The notes beneath the pieces were generated by a model. It did no database searches. It saw only the letters and a list, made by a program, of their open reading frames with translations, and was not told the DNA's origin. A DNA stretch of 12,955 nucleotides, taken from Acetobacter sp. (GTDB lineage Bacteria; Pseudomonadota; Alphaproteobacteria; RF32; CAG-239). Positions within the stretch are counted from its first letter, which is position 1; each line of letters begins with the position of its first letter. The position numbers were made by a program, and so were the translations under genes. This document shows positions 1-12,952 of the stretch, in pieces. Where the stretch lies: the NCBI GenBank assembly GCA_023665325.1, contig JAMPED010000039.1, forward strand, positions 1-12,955, given 5' to 3'.

Positions 1-52
1 TGTCATCCCTCTCAGGGTGCCCTGCTCCGGCACCCTGAGTCAAGGGATCTCC
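1..52 (+). repeat. Family A palindromic repeat, long-stem copy
   Basis: Starts TGTCATCCCT and ends AAGGGATCTCC. ATCCCT (5-10) pairs with AGGGAT (43-48). The inner stem is 11 bp (11-21 with 29-39) and TCA (40-42) is left as a one-sided bulge. It is almost identical to the copy at 12901-12952, with two differences in the loop. It lies directly downstream of the minus-strand HTH gene. Confidence 0.9.
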
Positions 53-744: not shown

Positions 745-784
745 TGTCATCCCTCGGCTGTGAAACAGCCGTCAAGGGATCTCC
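745..784 (+). repeat. Family A palindromic repeat
   Basis: ATCCCT, inner stem CGGCTG/CAGCCG around TGAAA, bulge TCA, AGGGAT, then CTCC. Same internal sequence as the copy at 7937-7976. Confidence 0.9.
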
Positions 785-1997: not shown

Positions 1998-2879
1998 ATG
2001 AAAAAAACACAAACTCTTCTCATTTCCTTACTCGCAGCCATAGCACTCACCCTCAGCATTATATGGCTGCAAACCCCACATAAGCGTTATGCCGTTTTTG
2101 CTGGCTATAATAAAAATGGCACAATCCCTCCTTATGTCATCACTTACTTAAAAGGTCTAAACGAAGTCGCCGATGGTGTCGTTTATATCGCAGACTCAAC
2201 CTTAAACGAGGGAGAAGCGCAAAAACTTAACGGCTTGGTAATACACACCGAACATAAACGGCATAACGAATACGATTGGGGCTCATACAAACGAGGTTAT
2301 AACTGGCTTAAGGACAACGGCTACCTAAAAAACGCGAAAGAGCTGATTTTTGCCAATGACTCAACATACGCTCCCCTCGGTTCATTCAAACCAATGTTTA
2401 AAGAAATGGATAAACGGAAAAATCTCGATTTTTGGGGTGATAGCCAAAACACCCATTTCACCACCCACCTGCAGAGCTATTTTCTCGTTTTCCGCCGACC
2501 ATTATTTACCTCACAAGCGTTCCACCGCTTTGTCAATAATGTCACCCACCAGCCACACGATAGTATGTACATCACCGAATACGAAGTCCAATTCACCCCA
2601 CGTTTTGCCGGTTTAGGATACACGTGGCAGCCATATATTCCATACCATAAATTACAATATCTCAATATGAGTGACAAAAACTCTTACCCCTACACGCTCA
2701 TCACCAAATACAACCACGTTTTCTTAAAGCGCCGCACCTTCACTGAAAAATTGATGATATTAGAAGACCGCAACGAACTTTTACGCTACATCGCCCAAAC
2801 CTACCCCGAAAATTATAAAGACATATCCCAAGACATCGCCCCACACTTCATCCCCGATGACTTGAAAGGAATAAACTAA
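1998..2879 (+). CDS. Membrane-anchored RgpF-like (rhamnan synthesis F family) protein
   Basis: A 293-residue protein. Residues 1-4 are MKKT and 6-25 form one hydrophobic segment, so it is probably a signal anchor with the rest outside the cytoplasmic membrane. The body resembles the RgpF family (glycosyltransferase-like proteins of rhamnose-rich polysaccharide synthesis): YAVFAGYNKNGTIPPYVITY near residue 31, EYDWGSYKRG at 91-100, FANDST at 118-123 and HLQSYFLVFR at 157-166. The downstream gene is a paralogue sharing these motifs. Its role is probably glycan synthesis or modification at the cell surface; the acceptor is unknown. Its start codon follows the U-tract of the lpxA terminator, and the putative ribosome binding site is inside that hairpin. 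The catalytic mechanism is not established by sequence alone. Confidence 0.7.
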   Translation: MKKTQTLLISLLAAIALTLSIIWLQTPHKRYAVFAGYNKNGTIPPYVITYLKGLNEVADGVVYIADSTLNEGEAQKLNGLVIHTEHKRHNEYDWGSYKRGYNWLKDNGYLKNAKELIFANDSTYAPLGSFKPMFKEMDKRKNLDFWGDSQNTHFTTHLQSYFLVFRRPLFTSQAFHRFVNNVTHQPHDSMYITEYEVQFTPRFAGLGYTWQPYIPYHKLQYLNMSDKNSYPYTLITKYNHVFLKRRTFTEKLMILEDRNELLRYIAQTYPENYKDISQDIAPHFIPDDLKGIN

Positions 2880-3793
2880 TGCTAAAAAATCTTCCACTTG
2901 AAAAAATTGCCGCCACCATCCTCCTCTTAGGTTACCTTATCCATTGGGCTTTTTATGATTATCAACCCATCGAAATAGATTACCAATTCGCCCCATACAC
3001 TAAAGGCGAAAACGCCGCCGTCTTTGCCGCTTATTCTGCCGATGGCACCATACCAGACTATGTAGTGGATTATTTAAAAAAACTCAAACAAATCGCTCCC
3101 AACATCGTCTATGTCACAGATAACCCCATCAAGCGAGGAGAAATCAAAAAAATTAAACCCTACATCTCTCACCTGCTAGCTTACCGCCACGGCGAATACG
3201 ACTGGGGTTCATACAAACGAGGCGTCGCCATCCTTAAAAACGAAGACACATTTAATAAGCTGATATTGGCTAATGATTCAACCCTACCTCTTGCCAATAC
3301 CTTCCACCCCATACTTGCAAAAATGACCACCGAAAACGCCGATATTTACGGCATCACAGCCAACAAAGATGGCGCATATCATCTACAAAGCTACTTCTTA
3401 ATCTTAACACCCGAAGCTTGGAAAAGCACCGCTTTTGCCGAATACTTAAATGCCGTAAAACCTGAGAAAGATGGTCTAACCGTCGCCTATCATTATGAAG
3501 TTCCCTTTACACAATATATGGAAGAACAAGGTTTCAAAAGCGCTGCACATATTCCATACGATAGCCTTTCCACCCTGCCATTAAATGATAAAAACTGTTA
3601 TCCGTTGACAATGATAAGCCAATACAACGCCCCATTTTTAAAAATGCGCACCTTCACGAACCGCCTCAATGTACAAGAATCCCGCCGTCTTGTTTTCAAC
3701 TGGCTGAAAAAAAACAAACCCACCGCCTACCATATGCTTCTAACTCACTTAAAAAATATCAATTCCCCTTATCTTAAGGACGCCCACGAATGA
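2879..3793 (+). CDS. Second RgpF-like membrane-anchored paralogue
   Basis: A 304-residue paralogue of the preceding protein. A hydrophobic segment at about 9-26 suggests an N-terminal anchor. The family motifs recur in the same order: AAVFAAYSADGTIPDYVVDY near 46, EYDWGSYKRG at 106-115, LANDST at 130-135 and HLQSYFLIL at 168-176. Near the C-terminus both share a tract like KNCYPLTMISQYNAPFLKMR (KNSYPYTLITKYNHVFLKRR upstream). The ATG overlaps the preceding stop by one base (TAATG), and the stop overlaps the next start (ATGA), so the three genes are probably translated together. The arrangement suggests duplication followed by divergence. The function is inferred from the family: a surface polysaccharide step. 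Confidence 0.7.
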   Translation: MLKNLPLEKIAATILLLGYLIHWAFYDYQPIEIDYQFAPYTKGENAAVFAAYSADGTIPDYVVDYLKKLKQIAPNIVYVTDNPIKRGEIKKIKPYISHLLAYRHGEYDWGSYKRGVAILKNEDTFNKLILANDSTLPLANTFHPILAKMTTENADIYGITANKDGAYHLQSYFLILTPEAWKSTAFAEYLNAVKPEKDGLTVAYHYEVPFTQYMEEQGFKSAAHIPYDSLSTLPLNDKNCYPLTMISQYNAPFLKMRTFTNRLNVQESRRLVFNWLKKNKPTAYHMLLTHLKNINSPYLKDAHE

Positions 3794-5037
3794 AAAAAAC
3801 TCTTTCCCTTTTGTCATCCCTTAATGATGTCCCTCACGCCTCTATGTCATCCCTTAATGATACCCCTCTCGCCTCTATGTCATCCCTTAATGATGTCCCT
3901 CACGCCTCTATGTCATCCCTTAATGATGTCCCTCACGCCTCTATGTCATCCCTTAATGATACCCCTCACGCCTCTGTGTCATCCCTCGGATTGCGAAGCA
4001 AGCCGTCAAGGGATCTCCCTAACCCCCAAGCTAAACAAATACCACTGCCTCCCCTTTCCGGTGTCAAGCTCCTCGCCGTCATCGGCATTCTCTGCTGCCA
4101 CACCGGACTCATCCACGCGTTTGATGCCTGCGCAAGAATGGTCGAAATCCTCTTCCTGCTTTCCGGTTTTTTAATGGCATATAACCACTTCTTCACCACC
4201 ACCGAACACACTCTTTTAAATGGCTGGCACAATGTTAAAAAGAAGCTCCCAAAGTTCTATCCCATCCACATCTTCACCTTTTTACTGCAAGCTCTCTTCG
4301 TCAGCTATTGGGCAGAAAAACCTCTCTCATACCTCTTCTCTGTTGGCACTCTAAACCTCACCCTTCTCCACGCTTGGTTCATCGAAACCGAATTCAGTTA
4401 TAATAATGTCTCGTGGTTTTTAAGCGCACTAATGTTCGCCTACCTTCTCACCCCCACACTGGCAGGCATCATCAAACACCTTGGCACCACACTTTCCGCA
4501 CTTATCAAATTCGCAGTGTTTATCATCCTCTTCCGCGCCCTATTTGAATATCTCACCTTAAACGGTTATATCCGCATCGACCTGCATTGCAATCCAATGA
4601 TACAAACCCTGAACTACGCTCTAGGTTATACAGCTGGCGTTTTATTCCAACAAAAAAGCCAATTCAACCAATACATTAAAGAAAAAACCTCCCCCTTATT
4701 TTTAACAATTTTACAACTTTTATGTATAACATTGTATATACTTTGCTGCATTCGCTTTAGGGATACATTGCGCCTATTTTTTGTCCTCATCCCCCTGCCG
4801 ATGCTATACTTGCTTGCTATTCCACGCGGACTTATTGCCAAACTCTTAAGCTACGCCCCCATACAAAAGCTCTCCACACTCACCTTAGAGATTTTTATGC
4901 TCCACTCCTTTATCCTTTACAAATTCCCCACCAATGCCGGAGATACCAAAAGCTATATCATATTCTTCACCCTAACGCTAATTTCCGCCCTCGCCTTTCA
5001 TCAAGCCCAAACCCTCTGGCAGAAATACATAAGGTAA
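3790..5037 (+). CDS. Acyltransferase-3 family membrane protein with repeat-derived N-terminus
   Basis: A 415-residue polytopic membrane protein resembling acyltransferase family 3 (OatA/NodX-like), enzymes that O-acetylate or otherwise acylate surface glycans. The first core helix, SGVKLLAVIGILCCHTG, with H104 as the likely conserved histidine, begins only at residue 90. PKFYPIHIFTF and NNVSWFLSALMFAYLLTP correspond to the family's R-x-x-Y-P and W-F-L regions. About nine more hydrophobic segments follow. Residues 8-62 are five 11-residue tandem repeats (SSLNDVPHASM type), and residues 63-77 come from a full family A repeat. Neither belongs to the family. The ATG overlaps the preceding stop by four bases, with AAGGA nine nt upstream, and there is no good start between the array and the core. 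The call is moderately sure; the substrate is unknown. Confidence 0.7.
   Translation: MKKTLSLLSSLNDVPHASMSSLNDTPLASMSSLNDVPHASMSSLNDVPHASMSSLNDTPHASVSSLGLRSKPSRDLPNPQAKQIPLPPLSGVKLLAVIGILCCHTGLIHAFDACARMVEILFLLSGFLMAYNHFFTTTEHTLLNGWHNVKKKLPKFYPIHIFTFLLQALFVSYWAEKPLSYLFSVGTLNLTLLHAWFIETEFSYNNVSWFLSALMFAYLLTPTLAGIIKHLGTTLSALIKFAVFIILFRALFEYLTLNGYIRIDLHCNPMIQTLNYALGYTAGVLFQQKSQFNQYIKEKTSPLFLTILQLLCITLYILCCIRFRDTLRLFFVLIPLPMLYLLAIPRGLIAKLLSYAPIQKLSTLTLEIFMLHSFILYKFPTNAGDTKSYIIFFTLTLISALAFHQAQTLWQKYIR
3812..3976 (+). repeat. Five tandem 33-bp units inside the acyltransferase gene
   Basis: Units start at 3812, 3845, 3878, 3911 and 3944. Each begins TGTCATCCCT, as family A does, then continues TAATGATGTCCCTCACGCC with small variations (GATACC, CTCGCC). 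The period of 33 is a multiple of three and is read as 11-residue repeats. The array ends exactly where a full family A element begins. Confidence 0.97.
3977..4018 (+). repeat. Family A repeat in frame in the acyltransferase gene
   Basis: ATCCCT, inner stem CGGATTGC/GCAAGCCG with one mismatch, bulge TCA, AGGGAT, CTCC. Read in frame as SSLGLRSKPSRDLP. Confidence 0.9.
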
Positions 5038-6282: not shown

Positions 6283-7215
6283 ATGAAAAAATGTGATGAT
6301 AATAAAGTTCAACAAGATGAGATTGATTTTTTATATTTGGGGGATGTGTGGCATACTCTCTTGGGAGATGCACAAGAAAAAGTTCACCCAAACATCATTT
6401 ATGATGGCATTGCCAAAGGTGTTCCTTTTTATGCAACAAAAGAGTACAGTTTTTTTAAACATCGCCCCAAAAGCTCTTTAATTTCTTGTATTACGGTTCT
6501 TAAACACGAAGATAATAGAAATTTGTTTTATTCAGAGTTTGCGTTTCTAAAAGGAGCGAAAAATAATTTGCTCTTTTTGGAAGCCAGAGGTCGTAAAATC
6601 AGTGATGTTGCGGAAGGATACATATTACTTCAAAAAGGATGTGCTCAAGCTATGTGGGCGTTTAATCCTCTTTATGCACAACAGAAAGCAAAATTGCTTG
6701 AACATTCCCCATCTTCTTTTATGTCTGAATTTTGTGTGGCTGGCTTAGGCTGGAATATTCAAAAACGGTCGGATACGCTTATTAAAATCGACCAAGGACC
6801 GACTTATGAGATGGCATTGCAAGAATTTTTAAAATCTCATCCGGATAAGACAAAAGAGGACTTTCCTTCTGTGGAATTTGATACGAGCCATTTATGTTAT
6901 TTGGGGGCAAAAAAATATCCTGATGCATACGAATTTGCCTCTGATGTTTCCGCTGTTAGTGAATTTCGATTTTACGGTATGAAAATTTATTGTCTGGAAA
7001 TTGAGGTTTTAAAAGAAACTGATGATAGTGATATCGGTATGAAAGTTAACCTGTATGTCAACCAAAATGACCTCAATGGCTATATCCCGCAAGTAGGAGA
7101 TAATATCTCCGGATTAATGCAACTTTCAGCTTATCTTCATTCCGAAACTGATGTTGACGATATGGAAGACATACCGAAAACATTGTTTCAAAAACTCAAA
7201 AGTTTTTTCAAATAA
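6283..7215 (+). CDS. Unrecognised 310-residue protein
   Basis: I do not recognise this protein. It has no signal peptide or membrane segment, so it is probably cytoplasmic. The N-terminal part (about 15-200) is mixed alpha/beta with aromatic clusters (FLYLGDVWHTLLGD, YATKEYSFFKHRPKS). The C-terminal part (about 230-290) has alternating strands: FRFYGMKIYCLEIEVLKE, then MKVNLYVNQNDLNGYIPQVG and GLMQLSAYL, which could be a small beta barrel. An acidic linker (TDVDDMED) precedes a basic C-terminus. The ATG at 6283 has AAGAGA about seven to nine nt upstream and is preferred to the in-frame TTG at 6265. It has its own promoter and a terminator shared with the tRNA, so it is a single-gene unit in an AT-rich accessory patch. 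Confidence 0.8.
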   Translation: MKKCDDNKVQQDEIDFLYLGDVWHTLLGDAQEKVHPNIIYDGIAKGVPFYATKEYSFFKHRPKSSLISCITVLKHEDNRNLFYSEFAFLKGAKNNLLFLEARGRKISDVAEGYILLQKGCAQAMWAFNPLYAQQKAKLLEHSPSSFMSEFCVAGLGWNIQKRSDTLIKIDQGPTYEMALQEFLKSHPDKTKEDFPSVEFDTSHLCYLGAKKYPDAYEFASDVSAVSEFRFYGMKIYCLEIEVLKETDDSDIGMKVNLYVNQNDLNGYIPQVGDNISGLMQLSAYLHSETDVDDMEDIPKTLFQKLKSFFK

Positions 7216-7936: not shown

Positions 7937-7976
7937 TATCATCCCTCGGCTGTGAAACAGCCGTCAAGGGATCTCC
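7937..7976 (+). repeat. Family A palindromic repeat
   Basis: Inner stem CGGCTG/CAGCCG around TGAAA, as in 745-784. First of a dense repeat cluster that fills the gene-free stretch 7880-8450. Confidence 0.88.
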
Positions 7977-8177: not shown

Positions 8178-8218
8178 TGTCATCCCTCGGCTTGCCTGCA
8201 AGCCGTCAAGGGATCTCC
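8178..8218 (+). repeat. Family A palindromic repeat
   Basis: Inner stem CGGCTTG/CAAGCCG around CCTG, with constant ATCCCT, TCA and AGGGAT parts. Confidence 0.9.
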
Positions 8219-8359: not shown

Positions 8360-8401
8360 TGTCATCCCTCGGCTTGCCCCGCAAGCCGTCAAGGGATCTC
8401 C
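8360..8401 (+). repeat. Family A palindromic repeat
   Basis: Inner stem CGGCTTGC/GCAAGCCG around CCC. Preceded by GGTGGCGCTGCCAC, itself a small palindrome also present near 1014-1025. Confidence 0.9.
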
Positions 8402-8505: not shown

Positions 8506-10251
8506 TTAAATCTCAAAATCAAGATTATCAAAGCCCCCCAGAGGAACTATCTTTTCTTCTCCAATTTCGAAAGAAACTTTGACCCTATCGCCTTTTTTAG
8601 ACCATTTTAACTCAGGAAAGTTAACACTTTTGCCGGTAAATTCAAAACCAGACTTTCCATCTAAAAGAATGTAATAAATGCCATCTTCCAGAGTAATGTC
8701 ACGGATAGTTGTTTCAAGCTCTATACGCTCAACTTGACTATCAAGCAGATTATCATTCTTGCTGCTTTGCAACATTGAAAGATACTTCTGCGCTGCCACG
8801 GTTTTCAGCTTATCACAGCCCACAGCCTGCCTATTTGTCGAAGCCACAAAGCAATATCCTTGGATATTTCCAGAACTATCCTTATAGGTCATAAAATAGG
8901 TCGGCACACCGCGAACATTATAAAGCACCGGAAAGGTAACTCTATAACCAGCAGCAGCAGCTTCAGCCTGCCCTTTAGCAATGTTTTGCGCTTCAAGCTC
9001 ATTAAAACCACTCATCCGATAAAACTTCGCCGCTTTCGTGCGTGTATCCACAAGCATAAAGCCGTTTGTCGCCTTGTCCGCACTGGCTGAGCGAATGCCC
9101 GTATACCAATAGCTGCGTCCCTTGCTATAAACAAGCGTCATACCCTCAGTTGGCAGAAGCACTCCTTCTTGCTTAGAAAAACAAGTAGAGTTCCACCAAC
9201 CCTGCTGATACTCACCCCATTGGCGAACCTGCTCGCTGATAAAATCTTTCGGCTGAATACGGTCAATCCACGCCGGCGCATCCTCAATAGAATATCGAGT
9301 AATTTCACCGGTTTCAGCATTCACCGTAATCGGACCTTCCGATTCTTCACCGCAAAAGCCAATCGTCTGCTCGTATGAGGAAAGCACCCAATAAGGCACA
9401 CCATTGCCATCAATCTCAAAACAATGATCGTTTAACCCCTTATGGAGATAACCATTCGTTTTGATATGACGTTCAATGTCATCACCGAAATACCCGCTTT
9501 CCAAGTAGCGCAGTTGCAACTTTCTGCCATTAACCTCAGTAACAAGGTAACGCACATTTGCATCTGTAGCGTCAACAATCACATACCCAGGGGTAACGCC
9601 ATTGTTTTTCCACTTAAAAAACGAGCTATGCTCCAACGGGGCGACCCAAATCAAGTCGTTGTTGAAAACGAGTTTTTTACCACCGTTAATGGTAAACTCC
9701 CCCGTAATCTGCTGAATGGTCATTTCACCAATCTCAACTTTAGAGCCAAGACCAGTATCATTACCAAGAACGTCCTCAGCAACTTTCTGGGCCAATCTCT
9801 CATCCACGGTAATCATCTTCTTAACGTCGATGACCGCAACGTCACGATGAAAGACACTGTCCGCTGCAACTTCAACATTTAAGCGCTTAGCATATTTGCT
9901 AGCGTTAAACATTTCAGCGCTTTGAACCCCTGCCACCAGCGGCGCAATCAGCGTAATCGCAAGCGGCAAAACGCGTAACCAAACATTCGGTTTCATATCA
10001 TCGTTGATAATGCTTGCGATGAATAAACCAAGAATTGAAACCATAAAAGTTTCAATCCATACTCCCTCAAATCCCCAAAATTGGAGAACGGGAAGCGTAA
10101 AATAGTTTAACATCCCAATGAGAAGAAATATCACACCGGAGATAATCCCCCAAACTGTAAAGTCCACTCGACTGGCAGACTTGAGATTCGGACAGCTTAT
10201 AGCTGCGAACAAAAGAGCCTCAAAAAGGCTTAGTAAAAAATAAGCTAACAT
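8506..10251 (-). CDS. Membrane protein with four N-terminal helices and a large extracytoplasmic region
   Basis: A 581-residue protein not assigned to a named family. Four hydrophobic segments lie in the first 110 residues (about 3-19, 32-53, 66-82, 92-108). The remaining 470 residues are soluble and rich in beta strands. Segments such as GYVIVDATDANVRYLVTEV, and ITVNAETGEITRYSIEDAPA followed by WIDRIQP, resemble the PepSY-like theme of a short strand pair followed by a D/E-A-x-T-G-x-V turn, repeated along the chain. Two cysteines (HCFEIDG and IGFCGEE) could form a disulfide. A perfect consensus promoter lies upstream, but no ribosome binding site is visible before the ATG. It stands 80 bp after the U32 gene, on the same strand, with its own promoter and terminator. 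Its role is unknown; envelope maintenance is a guess. Confidence 0.8.
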   Translation of the reverse strand: MLAYFLLSLFEALLFAAISCPNLKSASRVDFTVWGIISGVIFLLIGMLNYFTLPVLQFWGFEGVWIETFMVSILGLFIASIINDDMKPNVWLRVLPLAITLIAPLVAGVQSAEMFNASKYAKRLNVEVAADSVFHRDVAVIDVKKMITVDERLAQKVAEDVLGNDTGLGSKVEIGEMTIQQITGEFTINGGKKLVFNNDLIWVAPLEHSSFFKWKNNGVTPGYVIVDATDANVRYLVTEVNGRKLQLRYLESGYFGDDIERHIKTNGYLHKGLNDHCFEIDGNGVPYWVLSSYEQTIGFCGEESEGPITVNAETGEITRYSIEDAPAWIDRIQPKDFISEQVRQWGEYQQGWWNSTCFSKQEGVLLPTEGMTLVYSKGRSYWYTGIRSASADKATNGFMLVDTRTKAAKFYRMSGFNELEAQNIAKGQAEAAAAGYRVTFPVLYNVRGVPTYFMTYKDSSGNIQGYCFVASTNRQAVGCDKLKTVAAQKYLSMLQSSKNDNLLDSQVERIELETTIRDITLEDGIYYILLDGKSGFEFTGKSVNFPELKWSKKGDRVKVSFEIGEEKIVPLGGFDNLDFEI

Positions 10252-10330: not shown

Positions 10331-12709
10331 TCACTCTTCAACCACATACGCCACACCATCCACAGCCTCACGCTCATAAGCTTTCGCCGCAAACAGTTGA
10401 ATCTGACAATCTTTAGACACCGCAATATATTCCTTGCCGTCTTTTTTAAGCTGATACCGTTTCACCCCACGTTTGCAGTCTTTGCAAGCGTTCGGACGAA
10501 TACACACCGCCGAGGTAAAAAGCGGCGGATACGCTTTAATCACCTGCGCCAAAGGTATTGCAGAATGCGCCACCACCGCCCGCATATTCTCTGGCGAACT
10601 CTCCAACGCCAACGTCGCAAATGCCACGCCAAACTCAGCCAAAGCCAACACCGCATAACTATTCATCACATAAAGGAAACTTCCCGCCCCAATACGCACA
10701 TCTTTATACGGTTTCAAAAGCTCAAACGCATAGTAATTTTCGGCAATAAATTGCTTTGCGCCCCGCTCATAAAGCTTCGCCACAACCGCCGATAACTTCG
10801 CCATATTCCGACATATCTGCGGCAACCGAAACCACACATCTTTCATATCAACATCCAGCGCCAACACGTCCATATCCAGCGCCACATCAACAATCTCAAG
10901 CCCAGCTGGCTCCCGCTCTCTCTCCACACCGTCATTGCGAGCGTCGCAGCCACATCGCTGGCTATGCACCACCACACCGTCATTGCAAGTACCTCTGGCA
11001 CAAATTTGCTCTAAAAGTTGACGACGCAGCTCATTGAGCATTGACACCGGCACAAACCGCCCCTCCGGATTGCGCACCTCCAGAGAACGCACCTCAAACG
11101 CTGTCCCGCCGGTCTTTGCAAACGCCGTGCGAACCGCCTCTTCCACCTTAGCCACATCTTTTGCCGGCTCAAAACAACCCGAAACCGATACCGCCATCAG
11201 ATTTTTGTCATCCCTCGGCTGAGAAACAGCCATCAAGGGATCTCCAGCAACACACGAACCGAAAGCCCAAACAACGTCCGCCGCAATCTCCACCACCACC
11301 TCAAGCGCTGTCAAATTCCGAAACGCCCCCGGTTTTGGCTTAAGGTAATCATATTTCCCCTTAACAGCCGTAGAAGATGCCAAATACACCGGTGCCCCAA
11401 CTGCCAAATGCGGTCGCTCTTCAGGGAGTTCCAACTCCACATATTGCCCAGCTTTTGCCTCATATGTCGGCTTACCATTCACAAATAGCGCTTTCACGCC
11501 AAATCCAAACGGCTTTTCATCATTTCCAGAATCAACCTGCACCCCGTCATAACGAGCCACTGTATGCGATGTCTTAAACCCGAGCCGCCCTTTGCCAACC
11601 CGCTCCACTTTGCCAATAAGAAGCCCGCGATGTCCAACAAAATTCTCATCTGTAACCGTCTTGTCTTTACCGTTAAAATGAAACCGACACCACGGACGAG
11701 AGAAAATTTGTTTAATATCTTCGGCCTCGTTAAGGTCTTTCTTGCGCCCGTCTAAGATATGCCGATAATAATTCGTTACCGCCGCCACATAAAGCGGAGA
11801 TTTCTTCCGCCCCTCAATCTTCAAGGAAAGCGCCGGAATAGAAAGCACCGCCTCCTCCAACGCCAAATCTTTCATCGAAAACAGGTGAGAACGTATATTT
11901 TCACCCCGTTCACTTCCCCCCTCGTCATTGCGAGCGAAGCGTGGCAATCCATTAGTCCTAATTTCATCTTCGCTCGTGGATGAAAAATGCGAAATTTGTT
12001 CAAATGACCGCAGATGTCCTCCTAAGGAGGGGAGTGTACATAAACGTACATAACCCGACTGACGTGAGGCTTCCATCTGCGAGTCAGTTGGGCAAATTTC
12101 ACGTTTTTCAAATAGCGAGCGACACGGATATACACACCGCCCCCTATTAGCACTCTTCCCATATTCTAACGCTGAAAATAAACACTGCCCACTGTAAGAA
12201 TAGCATAACGCTCCGTGCACAAACACTTCCAAATCAAGCCCCGGACAAGCCGCCGCAATCGACTTAATCTCTGCCACAGAAAGCTCTCGCGCGAGCACCA
12301 CCCGCTTAAAACCAACCGATTGGAGAAACTTCGCCCCCTCAGCATTATGCACCGCCATCTGCGTACTAGCGTGGAGTTCCACCTCTGGAAGCATTCGCTT
12401 TGCCAAATAAAACACACCAAGGTCTTGAATAATCAACGCATCCACCCGAGCTTTACGAATAGCCGCAAAAGTCTCAGAAAGTTCGTCTATTTCCGCCTCT
12501 GTCAACACCGTATTAAGCGCCACAAACACCTTGCGATTAAGCGAATGCGCATAAGCGGTAAATTCATCTAACTCATCAGCGGTAAAGTTCTCCGCCCCTG
12601 CCCGAGCAGAAAATTTAGTTAACCCCAAATAAACCGCATCGGCCCCATAGTGGAGAGCCGCATACCCAGCCTCAATGTTCCCTGCCGGCGCTAAAAGTTC
12701 GTGTTTCAT
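10331..12709 (-). CDS. U32 family protein, RlhA/YdcP-like, with four repeat-derived insertions
   Basis: A 792-residue protein. RlhA (E. coli YdcP, about 650 residues) is needed for hydroxylation of a 23S rRNA cytidine; other U32 members hydroxylate tRNA, so the exact substrate is inferred. The N-terminal barrel (ELLAPAGNIEAGYAALHYGA) leads to the U32 signature EVFVHGALCYSYSGQCLFS at 161-179 and NRGRCVYPCR at 188-197, with Cys 169, 176, 192 and 196. SMKDLALEEA and LKIEGRKKSPLYVAA follow. The later part, including FVPVSMLNELRRQ, fits the extra C-terminal domain of long U32 proteins. Residues about 197-247, 254-262, 489-501 and 567-594 come from repeats; removing them brings the length near that of RlhA. 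The ATG at 12709 has GAGG six nt upstream and is preferred to the TTG at 12721. All insertions keep the frame, so the protein may still work. Confidence 0.85.
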   Translation of the reverse strand: MKHELLAPAGNIEAGYAALHYGADAVYLGLTKFSARAGAENFTADELDEFTAYAHSLNRKVFVALNTVLTEAEIDELSETFAAIRKARVDALIIQDLGVFYLAKRMLPEVELHASTQMAVHNAEGAKFLQSVGFKRVVLARELSVAEIKSIAAACPGLDLEVFVHGALCYSYSGQCLFSALEYGKSANRGRCVYPCRSLFEKREICPTDSQMEASRQSGYVRLCTLPSLGGHLRSFEQISHFSSTSEDEIRTNGLPRFARNDEGGSERGENIRSHLFSMKDLALEEAVLSIPALSLKIEGRKKSPLYVAAVTNYYRHILDGRKKDLNEAEDIKQIFSRPWCRFHFNGKDKTVTDENFVGHRGLLIGKVERVGKGRLGFKTSHTVARYDGVQVDSGNDEKPFGFGVKALFVNGKPTYEAKAGQYVELELPEERPHLAVGAPVYLASSTAVKGKYDYLKPKPGAFRNLTALEVVVEIAADVVWAFGSCVAGDPLMAVSQPRDDKNLMAVSVSGCFEPAKDVAKVEEAVRTAFAKTGGTAFEVRSLEVRNPEGRFVPVSMLNELRRQLLEQICARGTCNDGVVVHSQRCGCDARNDGVEREREPAGLEIVDVALDMDVLALDVDMKDVWFRLPQICRNMAKLSAVVAKLYERGAKQFIAENYYAFELLKPYKDVRIGAGSFLYVMNSYAVLALAEFGVAFATLALESSPENMRAVVAHSAIPLAQVIKAYPPLFTSAVCIRPNACKDCKRGVKRYQLKKDGKEYIAVSKDCQIQLFAAKAYEREAVDGVAYVVEE
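10930..11010 (+). repeat. Degenerate family B-derived insertion in the U32 gene
   Basis: CCGTCATTGCGAGCG (10929-10943) and CCGTCATTGCAAG (10978-10990) are two copies of the family B 5' end, 49 bp apart, each followed by a decayed remainder. On the coding strand they give CNDGVVVH and CDARNDGVERE, both containing the NDG signature of family B. Confidence 0.65.
11206..11245 (+). repeat. Family A repeat in frame in the U32 gene
   Basis: ATCCCT, CGGCTG/CAGCCA around AGAAA (outermost inner-stem pair lost), TCA, AGGGAT, CTCC. On the coding strand it is read as GDPLMAVSQPRDD. Confidence 0.9.
11923..11950 (+). repeat. Short family B repeat in the U32 gene
   Basis: A 28-bp compact copy, CGTCATTGCGAG CGAAG CGTGGCAATCC. 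On the coding strand it is read as GLPRFARND. Confidence 0.85.
11971..12121 (-). mobile_element. 151-bp MITE-like element in frame in the U32 gene
   Basis: The ends form imperfect inverted repeats of 28-29 bp: CGCTCG, then TGAAAAATGCGAAATTTG (left, 11971-11998), and the complement of CGCTCG, TTTGAAAAACGTGAAATTTG (right, 12121-12093). Inside is a 10-bp stem CCCGACTGAC (12054-12063) with GTCAGTTGGG (12083-12092), and CTCCTAAGGAGG near 12019. No transposase is encoded, so it would depend on one elsewhere. On the coding strand it is fully open and adds about 50 residues right after the CxxxC motif. Confidence 0.65.
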
Positions 12710-12826: not shown

Positions 12827-12868
12827 TGTCATCCCTCGAATGGCAAAGCCATTCGTCAAGGGATCTCC
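12827..12868 (+). repeat. Family A palindromic repeat
   Basis: Inner stem CGAATGGC/GCCATTCG around AAA, a stem sequence different from all other copies but perfectly paired. Confidence 0.9.
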
Positions 12869-12900: not shown

Positions 12901-12952
12901 TGTCATCCCTCTCAGGGTGCCCAACTCCGGCACCCTGAGTCAAGGGATCTCC
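12901..12952 (+). repeat. Family A palindromic repeat, long-stem copy
   Basis: Near-identical to 1-52 with an 11-bp inner stem (CTCAGGGTGCC with its complement). Only two loop bases differ. Confidence 0.92.

Follow-up and report, generated by a model that had tools for sequence, protein, structure and literature searches.

The window, that is, the whole 12,955-nt stretch of DNA that was analysed, carries on its reverse strand a gene of the U32 peptidase family (RlhA-like). Its 792-aa product matches the Pfam models Peptidase_U32 (1.7e-65) and DUF3656 (5.4e-15), and the closest named records to it come from uncultured Alphaproteobacteria, mostly gut or rumen samples by title. The core of the protein comprises 630 residues (range 613-651 across 38 aligned rows) and retains 314 of the 317 positions conserved in at least 90% of the other rows; the corresponding values in the other 37 rows run from 293/323 to 317/317. 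The residues E161, C169 and C176 of the RlhA U32 motif, which are reported to be required in E. coli RlhA (PMC6599085), are all present and have the same numbering as in the E. coli protein. The original prediction had named decay of the gene as an outcome that would speak against it; the core shows no sign of decay, and neither a stop codon nor a frameshift interrupts the frame. Judged from these features, the core looks functional. The protein is presumably made and working, and it may hydroxylate C2501 of 23S rRNA. In the NCBIfam scan no RlhA model matched, and the best model, TrhP, scored 199.5 bits, below its cut-off of 534. A quadruple U32 knockout of E. coli has been constructed, and strains without rlhA are viable (PMC6599085). 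Therefore, the tolerance of inserts described below may reflect a weak need for the protein, and the gene need not be essential.

As the original prediction had proposed, four repeat-derived segments are present in the single open frame of this gene (Table 1). The frame is open across each of them, and jointly they encode about 95 residues. Some of the particulars that had been put forward were altered by the closer comparison. The element described as 151 bp long is present in frame, but it measures 128 nt, and the larger figure takes in flanks. Roughly 100 residues had been thought to be added, which is close to what the segments encode, but the net gain is about 85, and the native linker is replaced in loop 3. 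Four insertions from at least three families had been counted; four copies of three families are indeed there, but they occupy three loops and not four sites. The 151-nt stretch that holds the longest element, family C, folds at -56.6 kcal/mol (z -6.8), and none of 200 shuffles was as stable. Family C folds as a single long hairpin, and its ends pair in the predicted fold in the manner of MITE-type terminal inverted repeats. A second copy of family C was sought in the 12,955-nt window and none was found, and an Rfam scan at the inserts gave no match at E<=1.

Table 1. Positions of the U32 gene, of the repeat segments read within it and of the other family A copies in the window. For the segments within the U32 gene the strand is that of the gene.
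Feature	Position	Strand	Remarks
U32 peptidase-family (RlhA-like) gene	10334..12709	-	one open frame, 792 aa; stop codon 10331-10333
Codons of E161, C169, C176	12182..12229	-	5' of all inserts in the gene; invariant alignment columns
Family C, 128-nt long-hairpin element, loop 1	11983..12110	-	residues about 200-243, read as EKREICPTDSQMEASRQSGYVRLCTLPSLGGHLRSFEQISHF; 2/6 frames open
Family B (CGTC-tagged REP), loop 1	11923..11953	-	residues 253-263, read as NGLPRFARND; 5/6 frames open; CGTC...CCA strand of the element is +, opposite to the gene
Family A hairpin, loop 2	11207..11246	-	residues 488-501, read as GDPLMAVSQPRDD; 3/6 frames open; own strand +
Degenerate family B pair, loop 3	10930..11005	-	residues 569-594, ICARGTCNDGVVVHSQRCGCDARNDG; substitutes for native linker
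Family A, CTCAGGG-stem variant	3..52	+	contig start
Family A copy	747..784	+	outside domain-supported genes
Family A copy in acyltransferase gene	3979..4018	+	read on strand opposite to the U32 case, SSLGLRSKPSRDLP
Family A copy	7939..7976	+	intergenic
Family A copy	8180..8218	+	intergenic
Family A copy	8362..8401	+	intergenic
Family A copy	12829..12868	+	5' of U32 gene
Family A, CTCAGGG-stem variant	12903..12952	+	contig end

The inserts are restricted to particular places of the protein. In a broad alignment of 126 rows (120 proteins and 6 loci), internal insertions of at least 8 residues were confined to three loops. Loop lengths were taken from a detailed alignment of 42 rows (31 of 136 proteins and 11 loci), in which 38 rows were counted and P0012, P0066, P0082 and P0106 were left out as near-duplicates. 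Loop 1 has 76 residues in the window protein as against a median of 15 in the 37 other rows, and 10-19 residues in 27 of the 38 rows. Loop 2 has 24 residues against a median of 6, the length found in 31/38 rows, and loop 3 has 62 against a median of 56 (52-66 residues in 36/38 rows). The net gain given above follows from these differences. In loop 3 the repeat-derived sequence mostly took over the native linker, with little net gain in length. The AlphaFold2 model (38 rows) has a mean pLDDT of 81.5 for the window protein, and loop 2 forms in it a turn between two strands. The only segments of at least three residues with pLDDT below 50 are 208-268, 490-498 and 585-597, which are the three inserts, and these low values in part reflect that aligned rows are lacking there. 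Whether the inserts fall in surface loops had been put forward as a check, and the model predicts them to lie in poorly ordered loops. A solved homologue of the related protein P0009 was sought by sequence and none was found at E<=1; a fold search with the same protein gave partial matches only, the best being the U32 peptidase Mk0906 and TIM-barrel proteins.

Two of the three families recur in the window. The pattern of family A is matched exactly at 9 places, compared with none in 200 shuffles, and the family B head, with one mismatch allowed, occurs 9 times as against 0.63 expected. All nine window copies of family A lie on the + strand, whatever the direction of the gene, and two window genes (U32 and acyltransferase) read the element on opposite strands. 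A further 11 copies were found in 4 of 152 related genomes (loci L037-L044 and L105-L107). The strand that bears the element has a negative local GC skew in 10/11 of these outside copies, and the + strand of the window has a negative skew in 10/11 sliding windows. Overall, 19/20 copies of family A are found on the C-rich strand (9/9 in the window, 10/11 outside); the copies cluster on few contigs and hence do not count as independent. In family A, 116 of 120 inner-stem positions are paired (20 copies with 9 different arms), whereas pairing between the arms of different copies reaches 56%; the inner stem is thus exchangeable yet self-complementary. Within the window, only the two in-gene copies, those of the U32 and acyltransferase genes, have one of the first six pairs broken. 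Outside the window, a broken pair is seen in one of 11 copies (L106), and because this stem is also broken, the breakage of in-gene stems is only a lead. One family A pattern was searched in viral_contigs and gave 0 matches. A dedicated Y1 transposase was considered as well. The Y1_Tnp domain occurs in 53/152 genomes but is absent from G005, G010, G016 and G018, all of them carriers of family A or C, and no link to the repeats is therefore claimed. The two ends of the contig (1-53 and 12901-12953) are copies of one family A variant and share 96% identity, and the assembly therefore probably broke at repeats.

Family B resembles the CGTC-tagged REPs (CGTC-1 to CGTC-4), which are common in Alphaproteobacteria, for which no dedicated transposase was found, and which also lie inside ORFs, some ORFs containing two (PMC3733652). 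The likeness comprises the CGTC tag (TGTC or CCTC in some REPs), a stem that starts with AT and a CCA tail. Window copies have the head CGTCATTGCGAG, and the full pattern is present in 7/152 related genomes. The loop 1 copy has the layout CGTC-ATTGC...GCAAT-CCA, which is repeated in related genomes, and the loop 3 pair is degenerate. REPs are characterized by an 8-9-bp stem and a 4-5-nt loop; the family B stem is imperfect, with one mismatch (counted by eye), and its inner part is variable. Family A differs from the CGTC-tagged REPs. It has TGTC and AT, but its end is CTCC and it possesses a further, exchangeable inner stem; the combination of a CCA tail and an 8-9-bp stem was not found in it, as it ends in ...GGGATCTCC and its inner stem has 7-11 contiguous pairs in 17/20 copies. 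Two families of Rickettsia palindromic elements (RPEs) have counterparts among these REPs, RPE-6 in CGTC-1 and RPE-4 in CGTC-4, and in recB of two Xanthomonas species different REPs lie at about the same site (PMC3733652).

Family C is dispersed outside the U32 gene. Matches at E<=0.001 occur in 25 of the 152 related genomes, with at most five candidates scored per genome, and matches of at least 68 nt occur in 8 of them (G001, G002, G010, G014, G016, G018, G021 and, weakly, G005). In the seven of these genomes in which it was read (all but G010), loop 1 of the U32 protein has 13-18 residues. The best match in G014 is 88% identical to the window element over 115 nt, compared with 62% identity between the U32 core DNA of G014 and the window and 34% at third positions; loop 1 in this genome has 13 residues. 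Of the 65 listed G014 matches to locus L100, 37 overlap the family C part of this locus, some being short pieces. Eleven distinct family C copies were examined in related genomes, listed as 12 entries because one of them appears twice, and none appears to lie within a trustworthy gene frame. The longest frame that overlaps such copies, found in L104 and 316 aa long, is antisense to another of 493 aa. Four family C loci were compared between G002 and G014, whose flanking genes there are 92-95% identical. At three of the four, the matching spacer of the other genome lacks family C wholly or for the most part (about 38 nt still align in one case), and at the fourth a 56-nt part of it remains. These findings suggest that family C, and the elements generally, are mobile or have recently been so, presumably with the help of an enzyme. 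The possibility that family C is a peptide module of many proteins was also considered and rejected. A query with residues 202-262 led to three proteins out of ten candidates, all of them U32, in a search that detects only relatives with common 5-residue words and similar protein length; family C was therefore not found inside any other protein. The spacers at L075, L076, L100 and L101 and at their G002/G014 matches are crowded with repeats (at least 93 matches for one 3-kb locus), which differ at matching sites.

Among close relatives the contents of the loops are variable. P0001-P0005 share 86-96% identity over 621 core columns, yet their loops hold unrelated repeats or nothing. Loop 1 contains families C and B in P0001, B, E and B in P0002, D in P0003, B and E in P0004 and ten residues in P0005, where D and E are by-eye names for recurring peptides known from protein sequences alone. 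P0002 and P0005, with 96% core identity, share loops 2 and 3 almost wholly, yet they have 72 and 10 residues in loop 1. A family C-like end is carried by loop 3 of P0004. Comparison of the U32 gene with the window's own genus was made at the protein level, and the DNA boundaries given for the inserts are approximate. On a core tree of the 38 rows, which has good support for 22 of its 35 inner branches, the minimum number of insert-state changes is 10 for loop 1, 3 for loop 2 and 5 for loop 3 (total 18). Labels were assigned by eye, and a composite label (C+B, for instance) was treated as a state distinct from C. These changes are not to be equated with insertions. When loops are scored on the same tree simply as filled or short, the minimum is 7, 2 and 2 (total 11). 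A further species, to which most of P0011-P0120 belong, has tandem repeats in these loops, built of 14- and 11-residue units whose copy number varies. This species has many metagenome entries, one cluster numbering 973 members, and its U32 loops 1 and 2 display a protein-level VNTR.

The occurrence of the same segments in homologues of unrelated genomes had been named as a result that would speak against the prediction, and here the outcome is divided. Family C is indeed present in loop 1 of P0006, P0007, P0108 and partly P0008, at the same place and in the same frame as in P0001, but these proteins do not form a single clade on the core tree (p-AU 2e-31). P0010, which is sister to P0006, lacks family C in its loop 1 of 24 residues, and the eight related genomes named above hold longer family C copies elsewhere while loop 1 is short in the seven that were read. 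P0108 forms a long branch far from the other carriers. By hand count, the family C peptides of P0001 and P0006 are identical at 36/41 positions (88%), compared with 81% for the core, and those of P0001 and P0108 at 32/41 (78%), compared with 73%; the peptide of P0007 was not included in this count, as an extra piece is present in it. The shared place and frame in P0001, P0006, P0007 and P0108 would also fit an old insertion followed by losses.

Palindromic repeats within genes are already known from Rickettsia and Wolbachia, from enterobacteria and from certain bacteria rich in REPs. RPEs are dispersed palindromes of 100-150 nt that sometimes lie in frame in conserved genes, in solvent-exposed places (PMC3767692; PMC2229807), and family C, with its 128 nt, its dispersal and its in-frame position, resembles them in size and distribution. 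For one guanylate kinase of Rickettsia that carries an insert of this kind, both translation and activity have been reported (PMC2229807). The parallel with RPEs drawn in the original prediction is thus upheld by dispersed hairpin repeats, by loops that are short in most relatives and by a core with no sign of decay. It is a parallel of form and distribution. The hosts here are other bacteria, with uncultured gut and rumen Alphaproteobacteria as relatives, and three families are represented by four copies within a single gene. The loops are short in some close relatives, whereas the set described in PMC3767692 has insertions in all orthologues. The Wolbachia palindromic elements are likewise protein-coding palindromes of an alphaproteobacterium (as described in PMC3767692 and PMC2229807), and here the likeness is one of description. 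Bacterial MITEs such as ERIC and Correia/NEMIS are also small, hairpin-forming and mostly intergenic, and are sometimes fused in frame (PMC2229807), but for the present repeats a target duplication and a parental transposase would be hypothetical. The clade probably corresponds to the GTDB order RF32. No report of such repeats in RF32/CAG-239 was found among the open-access literature matches listed, and the family B head, searched as a text string, gave only an unrelated open-access match.

Taken together, these results make it highly probable that RPE/REP-like selfish DNA is tolerated in three loops of the U32 protein, and that several families spread and turn over there with peptides as by-products. 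Several small palindromic repeat families would spread across the genome, and the three poorly ordered loops of the RlhA-like protein would accept extra residues while the core enzyme is kept. In-frame, stop-free insertions into the loops would survive and later be replaced, eroded or lost; other insertions would kill the gene and hence remain unseen. The encoded peptides would be by-products without a selected function, their neutrality being presumed. A single ancestral insertion of family C into loop 1, inherited by all carriers and diversified by decay, partial loss and overwriting, corresponds to the published eRPE-4 view for Rickettsia. The common site and frame in the five carriers (only partly in P0008) and the remote position of P0108 on its long branch fit such a history. 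However, it is unlikely here, as the carriers do not group together, P0010 lacks the element, P0002, P0003 and P0004 have other sequence in loop 1, and a family C-like end is found in loop 3 of P0004. Moreover, the family C peptide is more similar than the core in both pairs counted, whereas an old neutral loop should have diverged beyond it.

The same high identity of the peptide, together with the tendency of each recognisable family to one reading frame in these loops (by eye), could be taken to mean that the inserts have been co-opted and that selection maintains a role of the loop peptides, such as contact with RNA or the ribosome. This is very improbable, since relatives at 86-96% core identity are without the family C peptide or have unrelated ones, family C DNA is equally similar in copies outside trusted genes, and tandem repeats of varying copy number fill the same loops in another species. 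Still smaller is the chance that the repeats were misjoined within the gene during assembly of a metagenome contig. The contig does start and end in one family A variant, where repeats probably broke the assembly, but the frame is open through every insert, and P0006 and P0007, from other contigs, have family C in the corresponding position. Just as improbable is a decaying pseudogene that tolerates insertions because it no longer has a function. Several insertions in one gene and the loss of the native linker in loop 3 are compatible with it, but the retention of conserved positions is within the range of the other rows, the core length is unchanged, and no stop or frameshift is present.

Compared with the tolerance of selfish repeats in the loops, a more far-reaching proposal is that loops 1-3 are landing pads repeatedly filled, emptied and refilled by unrelated palindromic families, with replication-linked, strand-polarised insertion and decay of the hairpin within genes. 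It is a possible but rather doubtful proposal. Rickettsia orthologues can carry different RPE families at one site (PMC3767692), and this source leaves undecided whether such same-site elements reflect hot spots or one diverged ancestral insertion; it favours the single insertion and keeps hot spots possible. With its four copies from three families, and with replacement at the same loops, the U32 gene bears on this question. The case is unusually instructive because, in a single conserved enzyme, the loops of close relatives may be full, short or filled with other sequence. If the landing-pad proposal were true, the question would be decided for hot spots in one gene, without a dedicated transposase. 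The loops also show at which points a protein of the RlhA type accommodates additional residues.

Other features of the window were also noted. Two long genes, at 6286-7215 (309 aa) and 8506-10251 (581 aa), are without Pfam, NCBIfam or PADLOC matches, and the PADLOC run on four window proteins gave no match. The adjoining genes at 1998-2879 and 2879-3793 both have an RgpF domain and lie next to the acyltransferase gene (3790-5037); they are likely a duplication. Near its start, the acyltransferase gene contains 5.3 in-frame copies of a 33-nt unit (3812-4019, including the family A copy), the first ten letters of which agree with the start of family A. The order in this gene is 33-nt units, then the family A copy, then the Acyl_transf_3 domain.
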